Below are positions 52,309 through 59,932 of a DNA stretch of 64,000 nt, in pieces. Under the pieces are notes generated by a model. It was not told where the DNA came from and did no database searches. It saw only the letters and a program-made list of their open reading frames with translations. Position 1 is the first letter of the stretch; each line of letters starts with the position of its first letter. Both the position numbers and the translations under genes were made by a program. Source of the DNA: Candidatus Norongarragalina meridionalis. Its GTDB lineage: Archaea > Micrarchaeota > Micrarchaeia > Norongarragalinales > Norongarragalinaceae. Location of the stretch: NCBI GenBank assembly GCA_902384935.1, contig CABMDO010000020.1, positions 1 to 64,000 on the forward strand, in the 5' to 3' direction.

Positions 52309-52765
52309 AAATCCAGAGCTGCTGTCCGAACCACACCACCGCGGCGGTTTTTATGATTCGGGCGATAACTATCAGGACGAGAAACTTCTTCCAGTCCATC
52401 TCCAGCGTTCCCGCGGCTACTGGAATCAAATCGCCGACGAACGGAACCCACGGCGATACGACGAGCACGATGGAACCCCAACTCTTGAACCATCCTTCGG
52501 CTTTATGCTCGCCTTGCGGGTCACGCTTGACGAGGAAGGAATGGATGCCCTTGAGTCCGACATAGTAGTTGATGTACGCAGCGATTGTGGACGCCACCGT
52601 CACTACGGCGACTATGCTCCAGAAATCGAAATACTTCGACGCCAGCACGATAATGGGCTCGCTTGGGAACGGAAGGAGTGACGCGCTGAAGAACGCGACG
52701 ACGGCGAGTCCTGCCAAGCCGTACGTCTGCAGCACCGACACGCCGATGGCGACCAAGTCCACCAC
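52298..52765 (-). CDS. DedA/VTT-family membrane protein (YqaA-like)
   Basis: 'ASLLPFPSEPIIVLASKYFDF', 'NYYVGLKG', 'SPWVPFVGDLIPVAAGTLEMDWKKF'. Confidence 0.88.
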   Translation of the reverse strand: MVDLVAIGVSVLQTYGLAGLAVVAFFSASLLPFPSEPIIVLASKYFDFWSIVAVVTVASTIAAYINYYVGLKGIHSFLVKRDPQGEHKAEGWFKSWGSIVLVVSPWVPFVGDLIPVAAGTLEMDWKKFLVLIVIARIIKTAAVVWFGQQLWIFMG

Positions 52766-52814
52766 AAGAAACCAAGCGCCACTGTTATTAAATCGCTATC
52801 GCCCTAGAAGGATT

Positions 52815-53840
52815 ATGCGGATAAGATACGCGAAACGCGCGAACCCTCCAGCGTTTGCAGCCGAGGAGCTGGCGGTGCGGCGCGCGCGGTATCCTCGCAT
52901 CAAGGCGCGGCGCGCGTTCGAGTTCGCGCCGAACGCGGACAGGCGCAGGGCGCTTTCGCTCATCGAGAAGGGAAGGGTTGCGGATGCGGAATTCGTCCTG
53001 AAGGCGCTCGACAGCGACGACTACGTCCTCCGACGGGCGGGCGCCTACTTTCTGCACCGCACGCCGCTGCTCATGCTGCATCCCGAGTACGAGCCGAAGC
53101 TTAGGAAACTTCTCTCACATCCCGACCGCTACGTAGTTTTGGCGGCGGAAGACGCCATTTCGAACCTCCGCCCGATTCCCGAAAATCGCATCCCGTTCGG
53201 CACGAACGAGAAATTGCTGGGGAGCGCCGGCGGGCATCTTGCCGCCGGAGACATGGAGGTTCTCGGGGAACGACTGGGAAAAATCCGGGAGATAACGAAA
53301 CAGCTGCAAAAGGAGTTCGGCAAAAACTTCACGGGCGTCCTAGTGTTCGGCAGCACCAGCAAGGGATACGTCCGGGACGGCAGCGACCTGGATTACCGGA
53401 TTCTAGGAAGTCCCGCCGCACGCAGGCGCTTCCTCCAACTCGCGGAAACTAAGTCGCTGCTCCCGTACAGCGAGGAAAACAAGTACGACCATTGCCGCGG
53501 CTGGAAGAAGATAGGCGGCGCCTATGCATTGTTCACTGGCCTGTTCTTCGGAGACCGCGGGAAACTCCTGCAAATGCAGCGCAACGCAGTTTCGAGGCTC
53601 GACCAGAATAAATGGGAAGGCATCGCGGAACAGGTGGGCGACAGGGAAACGAACATAGGGGACGCATTTACCAGGATAGACGTGCCTGCATTTGCGGAGG
53701 AGCGGATTCGCAACGCGATTCGGCTCAACCGCGCACCGCCGACTCTGGCCGAGGTAAAGCTGATACTGAAGAGGCAGGCTAACGCAAGGATACGGTCACG
53801 CCGCAGGTTCGCCGGCCGGGCAACTGCGACAAACGCTTAA
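52815..53840 (+). CDS. Helical (HEAT-like) N-terminus plus MNT-type nucleotidyltransferase-fold domain
   Basis: 'FTGVLVFGSTSKGYVRDGSDLDYRIL' = GS..G...SDLD NTase motif; ATG at 52815 inside ORF 52569..53840. Confidence 0.75.
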   Translation: MRIRYAKRANPPAFAAEELAVRRARYPRIKARRAFEFAPNADRRRALSLIEKGRVADAEFVLKALDSDDYVLRRAGAYFLHRTPLLMLHPEYEPKLRKLLSHPDRYVVLAAEDAISNLRPIPENRIPFGTNEKLLGSAGGHLAAGDMEVLGERLGKIREITKQLQKEFGKNFTGVLVFGSTSKGYVRDGSDLDYRILGSPAARRRFLQLAETKSLLPYSEENKYDHCRGWKKIGGAYALFTGLFFGDRGKLLQMQRNAVSRLDQNKWEGIAEQVGDRETNIGDAFTRIDVPAFAEERIRNAIRLNRAPPTLAEVKLILKRQANARIRSRRRFAGRATATNA

Positions 53841-53865
53841 ATCCCCGACGCTGCGTTAAATACTC

Positions 53866-55110
53866 GTGGCAAAACTCCCCGCAATGCGGCGCCTCGCTCC
53901 CGCCAGAAGCGAGAAGGAGCTGCTTCAGCGCAGGGCGCTGGACATTCTTGGAAAGCATCCCGAGGCGGTCAGGGAGTATTTCGTCGGAGAGCTCGAGCCT
54001 GCCGAGAAGAAAATAGTCGCGAAGGCGTACGACGATCTGCTCGAGCGGCTGCAGTGGGCGGGGCTCGTAAGCGAACCGGACGTGACGGAACTGCAATCCA
54101 GGAAAAACGAAATCCTGGGCAAAACCAGGCATTTCGTCATCCAGAGCATGAGGTACGAAAAGAACGCCATAGACAGGTACCGGATGCTGCTTTCAGTGCT
54201 GGACAAGGATGGCGGTTTCCAAGGCGCGCACATGCCCGAAGCCAACGACACGAAGGAGATACTACTCGGCCGCAACGACCCGGAGCTCGGCGCGACCGCG
54301 ATGCACGAAATCATGCATGCGCTGCAGCACGGCGGATACATAAGAATAAAGAACAACGCGGAAAACCAGGAGCCTATTGCCGTCCTGTTCGACAACCTGT
54401 ATCTCGCGGAAAAAATTTCGGGAGGAGCGGACAGGAGGATAAGCCGAAACGCGCTGGACGAGATTCTTAGGGAATATTCCTCCACCAAGAGTTTCTGGAG
54501 CGCGGAAACAAGGCCTGCCGAGATACCTTCGGAGATCTGGAACGCCGAGAAACGGAAAGCCTCTTCCAATAACAACCACGCCGAGGGAGGCGCCGACGCG
54601 ATCCAGATTCTCGGCAGGGCTCTCGCATCCGGGATGCCGATGCGCGAGGTGTGGAAGCAGGCGGGGGCGTTCCTAGGCGCGAAATACTTCAGCGAAACCG
54701 ACGCGCATCCAGAGGACCAGCCGTACATCGACGCGTATCTCGCCGAGCGCGACAAGAACTTCGCAGGTGCGGCGGAACTTTACCAGACGCTGCTCCGAAA
54801 GGCGCCAGACTGGAACAGGGAACGCCTGCGGCTCAGAATTGCGGAAAACTACCTCAGGGCGAGGCGCTATTCGGAGGCGATACGCTGGTTCGGCAAGGTG
54901 TCCGAGCCGTTCGATTCCAATCTCGGAATCGCGCGCGCCCACTACGCACTGGATGATTTCGAGAAAGCCGCCGCATTCGCCGAAAAAGCGACTAAAATCA
55001 AACCGGACGCGTCCGCCTACACGATTCTCGGCAACGCCTACATGAACCTGAAACAGGTTGAGAAAGCCCGAGCCGCGCACGACAGGGCGGGAAAACTCAT
55101 CGCCACGTAA
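53866..55110 (+). CDS. Zincin-like (HEXXH) protein with C-terminal TPR repeats
   Basis: 'LGATAMHEIMHALQHGGYI' HEXXH; C-terminal TPR-like 'NFAGAAELYQTLLRKAPDWNRERLRLRIAENYLRARRYSEAIRWFGKV'. Confidence 0.7.
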   Translation: MAKLPAMRRLAPARSEKELLQRRALDILGKHPEAVREYFVGELEPAEKKIVAKAYDDLLERLQWAGLVSEPDVTELQSRKNEILGKTRHFVIQSMRYEKNAIDRYRMLLSVLDKDGGFQGAHMPEANDTKEILLGRNDPELGATAMHEIMHALQHGGYIRIKNNAENQEPIAVLFDNLYLAEKISGGADRRISRNALDEILREYSSTKSFWSAETRPAEIPSEIWNAEKRKASSNNNHAEGGADAIQILGRALASGMPMREVWKQAGAFLGAKYFSETDAHPEDQPYIDAYLAERDKNFAGAAELYQTLLRKAPDWNRERLRLRIAENYLRARRYSEAIRWFGKVSEPFDSNLGIARAHYALDDFEKAAAFAEKATKIKPDASAYTILGNAYMNLKQVEKARAAHDRAGKLIAT

Positions 55111-56077
55111 CCGCTACGTCGTCGGTTCTCCAGTCGGGCATAATATCATGCGAGCCTAAGCGCGCCTCTTTCCGCTGCAAAACGCCCTGCCAGGCTATCA
55201 TCGCAGCGTTATCGACGAGAAACTCGTTGGGCGGTACGAACATCCGCGCATTGCGTTCCTCGCACATGATTCGTGTTTTTTCCTGCAAAATCCTTGAGCA
55301 CGCAACGCCACCACCGAGCAGCAGTTCCTTTTTGTCGCAATGCGCCATTGCTCTCTCCGAGACTTCGACCAGCATCGCATAAACGACTTCCTGCAAGGAG
55401 TATGCGAGTTGTGCCTCGGAGTATTTTCTGCTGTCCACCAACTGTTTTGCCCTTGTCAATATTCCCGAAAACGCCAAGTCCATTCCCTTGACGGTATACG
55501 GCATGGGCACAAAATCATCGCTACTGGCTTGGTAGTAAAGTTCTTGCAGTTTGGGTCCGCCTGGGAAGCCAAGTCCCAAATGGCGTGCGAATTTATCCAG
55601 CATGTTGCCGATTCCGATATCCAAAGTTTCGCCAAAAATCCGGTATCGCTTTCCCTCAAACGCAATGATTTGCGTATTGGCGCCGGAAACGTACAGCATG
55701 ACGGGGTCTTTTGCAGGCGTAAGTAATCGCCCTATCTCCAGATGTGCGAGCATGTGGTTTACGCCAACTACAGGCAAGCCAGTTTTTTCGCTCAGTTCGG
55801 TTATGGTATTGAGCCCTATCTGAAGGCAGTTTCCTATGCCAGGACCTCTAGAAAATGAAAGCACTCCCAAATCATCTAGGGAAACGTCTGCCCTCCTCAA
55901 TGCCCGATCCAACACCTGCGTTTTGTTGGCGTCAAGAAATCTGGCAACCTCGCGCGGAATGATTCCCGCGCTTTCCGAAGTAAAGGATATTTTTTCGTTT
56001 GCCAGAACCTTGCCGTTACTGGAGACTATTCCTATCCCCAAGGTATGAGCGGTCGACTCCAGACCTAAACAAAGCAA
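55097..56077 (-). CDS. kae1: Kae1/TsaD tRNA threonylcarbamoyladenosine synthase subunit
   Basis: TTG start with SD-like GGTGA; 'LGLESTAHTLGIGIV', 'NHMLAHLEIGRL', 'YVSGANTQII', 'LLLGGGVACSRILQEK'. Confidence 0.95.
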   Translation of the reverse strand: MLCLGLESTAHTLGIGIVSSNGKVLANEKISFTSESAGIIPREVARFLDANKTQVLDRALRRADVSLDDLGVLSFSRGPGIGNCLQIGLNTITELSEKTGLPVVGVNHMLAHLEIGRLLTPAKDPVMLYVSGANTQIIAFEGKRYRIFGETLDIGIGNMLDKFARHLGLGFPGGPKLQELYYQASSDDFVPMPYTVKGMDLAFSGILTRAKQLVDSRKYSEAQLAYSLQEVVYAMLVEVSERAMAHCDKKELLLGGGVACSRILQEKTRIMCEERNARMFVPPNEFLVDNAAMIAWQGVLQRKEARLGSHDIMPDWRTDDVAVTWR

Positions 56078-57309
56078 GATGGTTCACCTGCATATTCTAC
56101 GGCACGACGATTATTAGAAAGAATATGTTTCAGTAGTTTAATATTATTCTGGATGACTGACGGAGGCTCGCCAGCCAATCTTGCCATCTCAAAGGCGCAG
56201 TCAGTGGGGATGAACTTTTTCCCAGCAGCCCATGACGGCAGATAGCTGTCCCGAACTGATGAAAGGACGGCGCCGTCAAGGTTGCGACAGTTGCGCCGTA
56301 AATACTCGGCGAGAGCCCCGATGCGCCCATCCGATGACTTGTTGCCTGAAGAAGCGAACGTCTTGGCAGCGTCAAGCACCAGATTTCTTTGGAAGGCAGC
56401 ATCAAACAATAAGCTTAGTTTTGGAGCGGGCACGGGGAAGCCGCTGGAAAAGTAGTCGCGGACTTCGCTCTTTTGTTTTATCCAGTTCAAACCTGACAGC
56501 ACTTTCTCGGCGCCGACCGCGGCGCGAGAGCAATACCGATACGGAACGTTTCTTAGAAAAAATTCCATGTTTCTCTTTTCGGTAAGAATGCGAATCTCGA
56601 CCGGATAAGTAGTTACGCCATTTTTTGAGATGCGCGGACTGGTCCATTTTACTTTTGGAGAGGTAGAACGGACTCCGAGGTGTTTCAGTAAAATATGGAC
56701 GCCGAGCATGAAGTCCTTGCTGAAATGCTCTGCGACATTTCTTTCAGCACTAAGAGACAACTTTAGGCTTTCCGAAGCGGTTCCTATTCGCTTGAGGCGC
56801 GGGACCGAACCGTCGCCTGCGAAAAGTCCGCCTATGAATTCGAACTGCAAATTGTCTGGCAGGAGGAAAATCCAGCGAGGCAAGGAAAAGGACTGGCGGG
56901 TCTTCCTTCCGAACGGCGAGCCAGCGCATATCAAAAGCCTTGCGATGCTGGCGGGAAAGTAAACGTAGTATGCGCGGGATGAAAAGCAGCAGTGCAACTT
57001 GATGTTCCACGCTTCGCGGGCATCATCAATCAGACGCAGAGCATCCTTTTTATCGCCAAAACAGATGTGAAACGTGAAAGAACGGTTGCGTGTTTGCTGA
57101 TAAATACACCCGTCCGCATAGCGCAGACCGAAAATCCGGATGAACTGCAGAAACGAAGCACTGTTTGAAACCTTTAGAGGCAAGAGCCCCATGCGTTCCA
57201 GTTCAATAATGCATTTCGCGGACTTCGTTACATCTCCATCAACAGGGAAAGTGGCAAGTACCGCTTGTTTTGTCGCAATAAGTTTTCCCTTCACTAATCG
57301 CGTATTCAA
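56065..57309 (-). CDS. Free-standing LAGLIDADG homing-endonuclease-type protein
   Basis: Two LAGLIDADG-like motifs: 'LQFIRIFGLRYADGCIY' and 'FEFIGGLFAGDGSVP'; overlaps the kae1 start by 13 bp. Confidence 0.8.
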   Translation of the reverse strand: MNTRLVKGKLIATKQAVLATFPVDGDVTKSAKCIIELERMGLLPLKVSNSASFLQFIRIFGLRYADGCIYQQTRNRSFTFHICFGDKKDALRLIDDAREAWNIKLHCCFSSRAYYVYFPASIARLLICAGSPFGRKTRQSFSLPRWIFLLPDNLQFEFIGGLFAGDGSVPRLKRIGTASESLKLSLSAERNVAEHFSKDFMLGVHILLKHLGVRSTSPKVKWTSPRISKNGVTTYPVEIRILTEKRNMEFFLRNVPYRYCSRAAVGAEKVLSGLNWIKQKSEVRDYFSSGFPVPAPKLSLLFDAAFQRNLVLDAAKTFASSGNKSSDGRIGALAEYLRRNCRNLDGAVLSSVRDSYLPSWAAGKKFIPTDCAFEMARLAGEPPSVIQNNIKLLKHILSNNRRAVEYAGEPSCFV

Positions 57310-57383
57310 ACGGCGCTTATTAGCCCACGGGGACGGGTGTCTTCCAGTGAACTTATTTAACCCGCTCCGCGCTATTAAAACGC

Positions 57384-58001
57384 ATGCGCAGGATAGGCGA
57401 CGGAGCCGAGGCGGTTATCTTCCGCAATGGCAAAACCGTGCTCAAAAAGCGTCCGAGGAAGTCCTACCGCCATCCGATTCTCGACGAGCAGTTGCGGAAG
57501 GGAAGGACGAAGCGAGAAGCGAGAGTAACCGCGAAGGCAAAGGCGCTGGGCGTAAACGTACCGGAAGTAATGCGTGCTTCCGATTATGACTTGTCACTGT
57601 CTTTCGTAGCAGGAAAACGCGTCCGTGATGTTCTCGACAAAGCAACGCCGTCCCAACGCCGCCTCATCTGCGCCCAAATCGGAACGCAGGCCGCGATTCT
57701 GCACAACGCGGGCATAATTCACGGCGATTTGACTACGTCCAATTTGATTTTCTCGCGCGGCAAAGTGTTCGTCATCGACTTCGGCTTGTCCTTCCACAGC
57801 GCGCGCATCGAGGACAAAGCAGTTGACCTTCACCTCCTGAAGGAGGCGCTCGAAAGCAAGCACTGGCGCATCTGGAAGCAGTGCTTCGCTGACGTGGCGA
57901 AGGCTTACGAGAAAAAAGCGAAGGAAGGAAAGCCGGTTCTGAAAAGAATGGAAGAAGTGGAAACGCGCGGGCGATACAAGAAAAAAATAGAAAACGTCTA
58001 G
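57384..58001 (+). CDS. bud32: Bud32/PRPK KEOPS kinase
   Basis: 'IGDGAEAVIFRNGKTVLKKRPRKSYRHPILDEQLRKGRTKREARVTAKA', 'IIHGDLTTSNLIF', 'VIDFGLSF'. Confidence 0.95.
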   Translation: MRRIGDGAEAVIFRNGKTVLKKRPRKSYRHPILDEQLRKGRTKREARVTAKAKALGVNVPEVMRASDYDLSLSFVAGKRVRDVLDKATPSQRRLICAQIGTQAAILHNAGIIHGDLTTSNLIFSRGKVFVIDFGLSFHSARIEDKAVDLHLLKEALESKHWRIWKQCFADVAKAYEKKAKEGKPVLKRMEEVETRGRYKKKIENV

Positions 58002-58963
58002 ATCGTAAACCCGCCAACGTCTTGTATCACGAGTCCCAAATCAGAAGGATTAAGTCTGGTAATCAAATATGATGCAGATTTTGGAACGGTATTTTTTGCA
58101 TGTAGGGTGGCGTCTACCTGAATTACTGGGCATTCGCCTCGCGGAATAACAATTTCCACTTTACCAACCACCTGTTCGTCTCCAGGGTGAAGATCGAATC
58201 CCAGGGGTCGGCTATAGACATCATCGGAGTAACCGACTTGGAAAAAATCGGAGTCGACCTTCGCAGGTCTAGAACGAATGTATTCTTCACCGAGATAAAA
58301 ATTAAGTCTACACACTGGATTTTCAGCGGTTACAACACCTGCATTCTTTACAATCGCAGACAAATAGTAGGCCGATTCGGCGTTAGAATACGAATAGCTT
58401 TTGATTTTTAAGACAATTCTAAGATTTGGTTCAATTTTTTGACTGAATAAAGAAACCACTTGGGAGTGATCAAGTGCTTCGTTTCTTCCCTCCAACCGCC
58501 TAAAATATTTTTTCTGCTTCAAGTCCATACACGGAACTTGGCTTGAGCGACTAATTTCGACAGCATATGCCTTCATAGGTTTGTCTTCAGACTTTTCAAT
58601 CTCAAGAATTGAAAAATCGCAGGCCAGGAGTGTAGAATCGGTTATTCTGTTTCTAAGAGCGGAACTAGTTAGTTTAGAGTCTCTAGAATCAATCCAACTG
58701 GGTTTTGGCGAGTTTTGGTTTTTTTCATCTGGATCTGTAAAACCGACAAACAAAAGACCGCCATGCTGAGAATTTACAAAAGCAGAGATTACCTCGCCGA
58801 GATCGAGATTAGAAAAGGAGGTCGTAGTTTGCTCTTTGAAGTCGTAATTTATTGTTTCTTTAAAAACGGAATTTAGGAACGGGGCAATTTCTTTATCGGT
58901 AATGAGGTAGCCATTAGGCCGTATTCCCGTGATTTTTTCAAACAGGGGGAAATCGATATCCAT
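57998..58963 (-). CDS. AlbA_2/Schlafen-like nucleic-acid-binding domain protein
   Basis: 'FKETINYDFKEQTTTSFSNLDLGEVISAFVNSQHGGLLFVGFTD' AlbA_2-type core; 6 bp downstream of the TIR gene; AT-rich. Confidence 0.72.
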   Translation of the reverse strand: MDIDFPLFEKITGIRPNGYLITDKEIAPFLNSVFKETINYDFKEQTTTSFSNLDLGEVISAFVNSQHGGLLFVGFTDPDEKNQNSPKPSWIDSRDSKLTSSALRNRITDSTLLACDFSILEIEKSEDKPMKAYAVEISRSSQVPCMDLKQKKYFRRLEGRNEALDHSQVVSLFSQKIEPNLRIVLKIKSYSYSNAESAYYLSAIVKNAGVVTAENPVCRLNFYLGEEYIRSRPAKVDSDFFQVGYSDDVYSRPLGFDLHPGDEQVVGKVEIVIPRGECPVIQVDATLHAKNTVPKSASYLITRLNPSDLGLVIQDVGGFTI

Positions 58964-58969
58964 TCAGAG

Positions 58970-59749
58970 TCATCCACTTTTTTTAAGCAGTTTCTTAACT
59001 TCAGAGACTATTGCGGGTATTGAGTCTGAATTTTTTGCAAGTTTGTCTGCAAAGGCAGGCATATTTTTCAGTACATCTTCACGAGAAACGTCGTGCCATA
59101 TTGGCAGAATTACTTTTTGTCCATTTGACTCTTTAGCAAATAAGCCATCTAGCTCGTGTTCCGTCCATTTCGAGTGCTTACTGAAAAAAGCTTTGGAAAA
59201 TATAACTAGACCGAATCTACTTCGGCTCAGACCTCGGTCTATTGATGCGCGGAGGCTGTCTCCCCACCCAAGCTCAAAATCGTCATACCATGTTCGTATT
59301 CCTGCAGAGACTAGGGCATCGGCTAGTGGCTTGACAAATGAATCCTTATCTTCGTACACGTGACAGATAAAGATGTCATATTCTTCGGCGGTTTGTGTGC
59401 CAGAAGTTTTGCTAGCTTCACGATCGGTAACGCTAAAAGACAGAATTTTGTCTCTAACAGTCGTATCATACGGGTTTTGATCATAAAGCCACTCCAAATC
59501 GGTTAGTGACCCAACCGCAAGAAGTTTATTTTTAGCTTTGAAATCGTAAGGATTCTCAGCAAGCAGTGTCCTAAGACTATGCGGATTTCCTAATTGTATG
59601 AGTCGCTCCCTCACCGTCGAGTCATACGGATTTTGATGATGGAGCCATTCCAAATCGTCTACGGATCCTATCTCTAAAAGTCTTCTCTTTGCAGCAGAAT
59701 CGTAGGGATTGTATTCTAAAATTTTTCGTATATGACTAGTATCAACCAT
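58970..59749 (-). CDS. TIR-domain protein with four N-terminal 26-aa LRV-like (NPYD) repeats
   Basis: TIR: 'EYDIFICHVYEDKDSFVKPLADALVSAGIRTWYDDFELGWGDSLRASIDRGLSRSRFGLVIFSKAFFSKHSKWTEHELDGLFA'; repeats NPYD-x22. ATG 59749 preceded by GGTGAGG (ORF track begins at 59812). Confidence 0.9.
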   Translation of the reverse strand: MVDTSHIRKILEYNPYDSAAKRRLLEIGSVDDLEWLHHQNPYDSTVRERLIQLGNPHSLRTLLAENPYDFKAKNKLLAVGSLTDLEWLYDQNPYDTTVRDKILSFSVTDREASKTSGTQTAEEYDIFICHVYEDKDSFVKPLADALVSAGIRTWYDDFELGWGDSLRASIDRGLSRSRFGLVIFSKAFFSKHSKWTEHELDGLFAKESNGQKVILPIWHDVSREDVLKNMPAFADKLAKNSDSIPAIVSEVKKLLKKSG

Positions 59750-59932
59750 TGCCTCACCAGAGCGTTGCTTGTAATAGAAGCCTATCCTATGAATCATATT
59801 AAAGGTTTTCATAGAAAACTATCAAACCATGCTATTTGAGCAGAGGGTACAATGATTTCGAGTTTATGCATATGGAACCTGACGCTAATTGCGCCATAAG
59901 GGATTTAAATTCTAGGTCGCGGTTGTTGTTTT

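Follow-up and report, generated by a model that had tools for sequence, protein, structure and literature searches.

An open reading frame of 414 amino acids, termed LAG here, is located at the start of kae1, a conserved gene of tRNA modification, in the micrarchaeon Candidatus Norongarragalina meridionalis (G000, the source genome, a draft assembly of 23 contigs totaling 0.93 Mb). The window analyzed is a stretch of 64,000 nucleotides, contig CABMDO010000020.1 positions 1–64,000. By its two motifs with their acidic residues and its characteristic modeled fold LAG is a LAGLIDADG endonuclease, with cleavage itself a predicted property, and it is a free-standing gene, outside of any intron or intein. 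It is probably a selfish gene. The explanation we consider well ahead in probability is that LAG is a homing endonuclease gene of likely intein descent, inserted at the kae1 start and probably accompanied by a kae1 copy whose donor was related to Ca. Micrarchaeota AlinenSediments_bin-0467 (G004), a member of the same family. The features of the locus are as follows.

56065–57309, minus strand: LAG, free-standing LAGLIDADG endonuclease open reading frame, 414 aa, TTG start, TAG stop at 56067–56065 (open reading frame, profile search and model)
56446–57207, minus strand: LAG endonuclease core, about residues 35–288 (high-confidence model, alignable to intein endonuclease domains)
57109–57120, minus strand: first LAGLIDADG motif, YADG, acid D66 (sequence and alignment)
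56809–56820, minus strand: second LAGLIDADG motif, AGDG, acid D166 (sequence and alignment)
56068–56445, minus strand: C-terminal part of LAG, residues 289–414, predicted helical with low confidence, no family identified (model)
56065–56077, minus strand: 13 bp overlap of the LAG coding end with the kae1 start (sequence)
56084–56089, minus strand: Shine-Dalgarno (SD)-like AGGTGA inside the LAG coding end, 6 nt 5′ of the kae1 TTG (read from the sequence)
55097–56077, minus strand: kae1, 326 aa, TTG start at 56077–56075, xenologous copy (profile search and tree)
57352–57362, minus strand: TATA-like GGTTAAATAAG, 5′ of LAG (read from the sequence)
57384–58001, plus strand: bud32 of native type, oriented away from LAG and kae1 (profile search and comparison with G001)

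LAG matches the Pfam family LAGLIDADG_3 at 1.7e-6, which exceeds the family cut-off. A match to NCBIfam RtcB_rel_intein at 2.5e-17 covers its endonuclease part and corresponds to the nuclease of RtcB proteins that carry an intein. The AlphaFold2 model of the core (about residues 30–288) has pLDDT values mostly above 90; those of the C-terminal ~120 residues are low. With both profile matches and a confidently modeled core, LAG is not a chance open reading frame. Foldseek matches, with E-values down to 2.8e-7 overall, include the intein endonucleases TliVMA, PI-PfuI and PI-PkoII, the intron endonucleases I-Tsp061I and I-DmoI, and WhiA. As read in an earlier note on this DNA, both motifs keep the acidic residue (D66 in YADG, D166 in AGDG), and no loss of catalytic residues was found. 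D66 is invariant in 20 sequences, i.e. LAG and 19 micrarchaeal endonuclease domains from intein-type frames.

No Hint splicing domains were matched in LAG by Pfam or by alignment. An intein remnant in situ is ruled out by the lack of a Hint domain, the completeness of kae1 and the separate LAG open reading frame. A group I intron or other known RNA was rejected, with zero Rfam matches across 52–60 kb of the window. Two intron arrangements were also rejected on inspection. For a position of LAG within a kae1 intron that has an upstream exon, the 74 bp upstream show by eye no suitable start codon or bulge-helix-bulge. A mini-intron at the kae1 start (ATG, 16 nt, CTT) has a workable frame but no fitting bulge-helix-bulge pairing.

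Both kae1 and bud32 are confidently identified by profile search. The earlier note placed the open reading frame between these genes, which is correct. No kae1-bud32 operon or fusion was split, since bud32 is on the plus strand: kae1 and bud32 are divergent, and LAG lies in their shared upstream region and not inside an operon. The TATA-like GGTTAAATAAG is also found on the plus strand 24–32 bp before bud32, and could be a promoter for either gene.

The kae1 start has no ATG and TTG is used. The overlap of the LAG stop codon with this TTG was reported in the earlier note and is confirmed (13 bp, 56065–56077), as is the SD-like AGGTGA inside the LAG coding end (56089–56084, minus strand, 6 nt from the TTG). 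The geometry of the TTG and the well-placed SD-like site fits translation of kae1 from a transcript shared with LAG, a possible coupling that the earlier note had raised. Within the 3′ end of LAG, an AT-rich stretch could serve as a kae1 promoter. Translation of kae1 may start at the TTG inside the LAG transcript, or on a separate transcript made from such a promoter.

The family comparison comprises G000 and ten other draft genomes, and the kae1/bud32 junction is readable in nine of them (G001–G009); the G010 contig stops near kae1. LAG is absent from the junction in every one of the nine, and this absence is firm at the junction and less certain elsewhere in the genomes. In G003, G004, G006 and G009 the divergent gap is near-empty, 34–79 bp. 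In the same-genus relative Candidatus Micrarchaeota CG08_land_8_20_14_0_20_59_11 (G001) the junction holds PIN and NERD genes together with a likely antitoxin (L041 10190–11641). It holds MNT and HEPN genes in G008 (L048 3428–4403) and an unknown open reading frame in G002 (L042 7119–7646). G005 and G007 have a Sua5/TsaC-type gene between the two, in the order kae1-Sua5-bud32. LAG is thus a lineage-specific insertion: it is missing at the junction in relatives, four gaps are near-empty and G001 has other genes there. This agrees with the homing-type insertion at the kae1 5′ end that the earlier note had put forward, and the sister-genome comparison it proposed shows no conservation of the open reading frame across the clade.

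The kae1 sequence itself appears to be foreign. Genes flanking the locus are mostly 75–92% identical between G001 and G000, whereas kae1 is only 63–65% identical. The G000 bud32 is 80% identical to that of G001 over the readable part (first 65 aa). In the kae1 tree G000 and G004 are joined with support of 100/99, and G001 and G006 with 99/96. A kae1 clade of G000 and G001 is rejected with p 0.0115, for a clade that was chosen after the identities were known. By these sequence comparisons kae1 of G000 is xenologous, as it groups with G004 while bud32 and the flanks match G001. The GC3 values are 0.57 for kae1 and 0.53 for LAG, and about 0.7–0.85 for most genes of the window. In a check for a kae1 mosaic, only the last 69 nt of kae1 were closer to G001 (43 vs 30 matches), a weak signal. 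These data are most simply explained by a replacement of kae1 in the G000 lineage, an exchange that LAG either accompanied or drove.

Several other properties of kae1 and its surroundings were recorded. The kae1 of most family members nests within Woesearchaeota-type sequences, apart from other Micrarchaeota; G005 and G007 retain the other type. A class-wide kae1 search gave one more kae1 with an internal stop, in G062. Directly past bud32, at 57998–59812 of the window, are a Schlafen/AlbA_2 gene and a TIR gene with GC3 of 0.36–0.38, a possible defence-related acquisition. On the other side, at 52569–55110, two plus-strand genes (nucleotidyltransferase-like and TPR) are located between a DedA-like gene and kae1. 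G001 does not have them there, and its DedA-like gene and kae1 are 35 bp apart.

The intein homologues that the earlier note proposed to look for do exist. In 301 genomes of the class the relatives of LAG are 23–30% identical and are mostly intein endonuclease domains; the hosts are RtcB, RpoB, LonB, a helicase, aconitase and thioredoxin, as named from translated frames and not from a family search. No close relatives were found in the 301 class genomes, GTDB r220, IMG/VR, phages or plasmids, and no second copy in the G000 draft genome. A tree built from 61 endonuclease domains places LAG within a 32-row clade (98/90) whose other members are intein-type frames, separate from the carB, IPS/ligase and other free-standing endonuclease groups. 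The LAG nuclease domain is therefore likely to descend from an intein lineage, and we stop short of calling the descent proved, given the great length of the LAG branch and an alignment profile rich in inteins. RtcB of G000 is intein-free (L068–L072; G000:C13, G000:C1). At G000:C1:8496-9362 the genome carries another frame of intein type, 979 aa long.

Micrarchaeal free-standing LAGLIDADG genes abut or overlap the ends of conserved genes at L193, L201, L191, L205, L159, L161, L122, L196 and L197. Free-standing endonuclease genes, whose neighbors are named here from reading of the translations, are found upstream of carB (G010, G019), a TYW1-like gene (G001), helicase-like and Nre-like genes (G035) and tRNA-His with hisS (G020). 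Others are tail to tail with thrS (G086, G107) or with inositol-phosphate synthase (G079, G090, G093). That other free-standing endonucleases of the class are also flush against conserved genes strengthens the homing interpretation of LAG.

Under that interpretation LAG would have become inserted at the kae1 start codon in the lineage of G000 after its split from G001, and it probably arrived together with the kae1 copy from a G004 relative. LAG would spread by cutting kae1-junction alleles that do not carry it, and repair of the break from a LAG-bearing copy would also convert the adjoining kae1. No LAG-bearing donor was found, and G004, which has the source-like kae1, is without LAG at this gene.

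LAG may instead have been carried along with an acquired kae1 by illegitimate joining. In that event kae1 would not be its target and decay would be likely. The xenologous kae1 is consistent with this, as are the low-GC3, acquired-looking genes on the far side of bud32. In addition, the kae1/bud32 space of relatives accepts unrelated inserts, thus an insertion requires no homing. However the LAG open reading frame is intact with both acids and a well-modeled core, and several free-standing endonucleases of the class adjoin gene ends likewise. We regard a mere passenger as unlikely, though a serious candidate.

A further alternative to homing of LAG into kae1 on its own comes from the carB genes. 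An endonuclease gene separates carA from carB in G010 and G019; in G008 the gene at this place is a remnant that has lost a large internal part. In all three carB is interrupted between the same codons, GAA|TTC, by 32 nt in G010, 29 nt in G019 and 29 nt in G008 (insert regions G010 L121 5826–5869, G019 L189 4059–4099, G008 L190 2762–2802). At the predicted cuts the inserts have bulges of 3 nt. Their central helix pairs GCCG with CGGC, CGGT or CGGA, the G019 helix having one mismatch. The inner helix has nine pairs, and seven of these covary, with changes on both sides. When folding was compared with shuffled sequences, two inserts ranked above almost every shuffle and the third was unremarkable. 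In 16 further carB genes the reading frame runs through without an insert, and a search of 1.5 kb around them found no endonuclease of this kind. The joint presence of insert and endonuclease in three carB genes and of neither in 16 gives a Fisher p of about 0.001, with kinship ignored. The carB of G009 has no insert and no endonuclease; over the query part its identity to the G010 gene is 93%. The arrangement resembles the collaborative homing of F-CphI and psbA (PMC6083498), here with predicted bulge-helix-bulge introns.

A comparable insert is found in kae1 of G004. It is 21 nt long (L044 8869–8889) and places a TGA in frame at a conserved His codon. CCGC of the exon can pair with GCGG of the intron, leaving bulges AC^T and AA^A. 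About 30 nt separate the insert from the site that corresponds to the LAG/kae1 junction of G000, and its sequence makes it a likely mini-intron. No intron was found in the G000 kae1. Apparent introns in kae1 of G003 and G008 were rejected: the gap in G003 is a stretch of N in the assembly, and that in G008 is an insertion that keeps the frame.

LAG could accordingly be the outside nuclease of a kae1 mini-intron, cutting near the His codon of STAHTFG; in that case G004 would retain only the intron and G000 only the nuclease. The G004 kae1, closest to that of G000, has the bulge-helix-bulge-like insert near the junction equivalent, the carB mini-intron and an adjacent endonuclease gene co-occur in 3 of 3 cases vs 0 of 16, and F-CphI with psbA is a precedent (PMC6083498). 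However the G000 kae1 is intronless so that its own site would be exposed, G004 does not have LAG at kae1, LAG is outside of the carB endonuclease group in the tree, and splicing of the G004 insert is a prediction. As an explanation of the locus this is decidedly improbable. Membership of LAG in a mini-intron arrangement of the carB kind is a long shot that we treat as a lead. The broader proposal, that free-standing LAGLIDADG nucleases at the 5′ ends of conserved genes mobilise bulge-helix-bulge mini-introns in Micrarchaeota that are too short to encode one, as in carB, and that LAG is the kae1 version with its partner intron surviving in G004, is speculative and has a small chance of being right. 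If true, such an arrangement would answer how archaeal mRNA introns without a nuclease move, and the carB and G004 kae1 mini-introns make their spread testable.

Domestication of LAG as a regulator of kae1 or bud32 expression, also raised in the earlier note, would suit its place in the shared upstream region and has parallels in LAGLIDADG-derived regulators such as WhiA, one of the fold matches, but no evidence for it was found: LAG is in one genome only with its catalytic acids kept and no orthologue is under visible selection, thus the homing interpretation is favored and domestication appears very remote. The LAG/kae1 case points to possible replacement of a conserved gene together with its selfish neighbor, an event that would mislead trees based on kae1.

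With archaeal intein endonucleases (RtcB, RpoB, LonB; PI-PfuI, PI-PkoII, TliVMA) the LAG core shares an alignment of ~250 residues that takes in the sub-domain ahead of the first motif; the predicted fold is the same and they form one clade. Unlike the inteins, LAG has no Hint domains, is not in a host protein and has a different C-terminal part, and the identity is only 24–30%. The intron-encoded I-DmoI and I-Tsp061I are, like LAG, single chains with two LAGLIDADG motifs and match its fold. However LAG is not intron-borne; there is no intron in the G000 kae1 and no Rfam match at 52–60 kb. Phage T4 Seg/Mob and cyanophage F-CphI are, as is LAG, stand-alone nucleases beside a conserved gene and without a splicing element of their own. 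F-CphI is of another nuclease family and its neighbor psbA bears an intron, an arrangement named collaborative homing (PMC6083498), whereas LAG is on an archaeal chromosome beside an intronless kae1.

Archaeal cbf5 pre-mRNA introns are 16–44 bp, too short to code for a nuclease, and the report on them names no partner nuclease (PMC2738675). The inserts in carB and in the kae1 of G004 fall into this size class and have bulge-helix-bulge features. The carB mini-introns differ from those of cbf5 in that they adjoin an endonuclease gene or its remnant. Among the papers that the searched library yielded, none describes a homing-type gene flush with a KEOPS gene. LAG is a known kind of gene at a new location.
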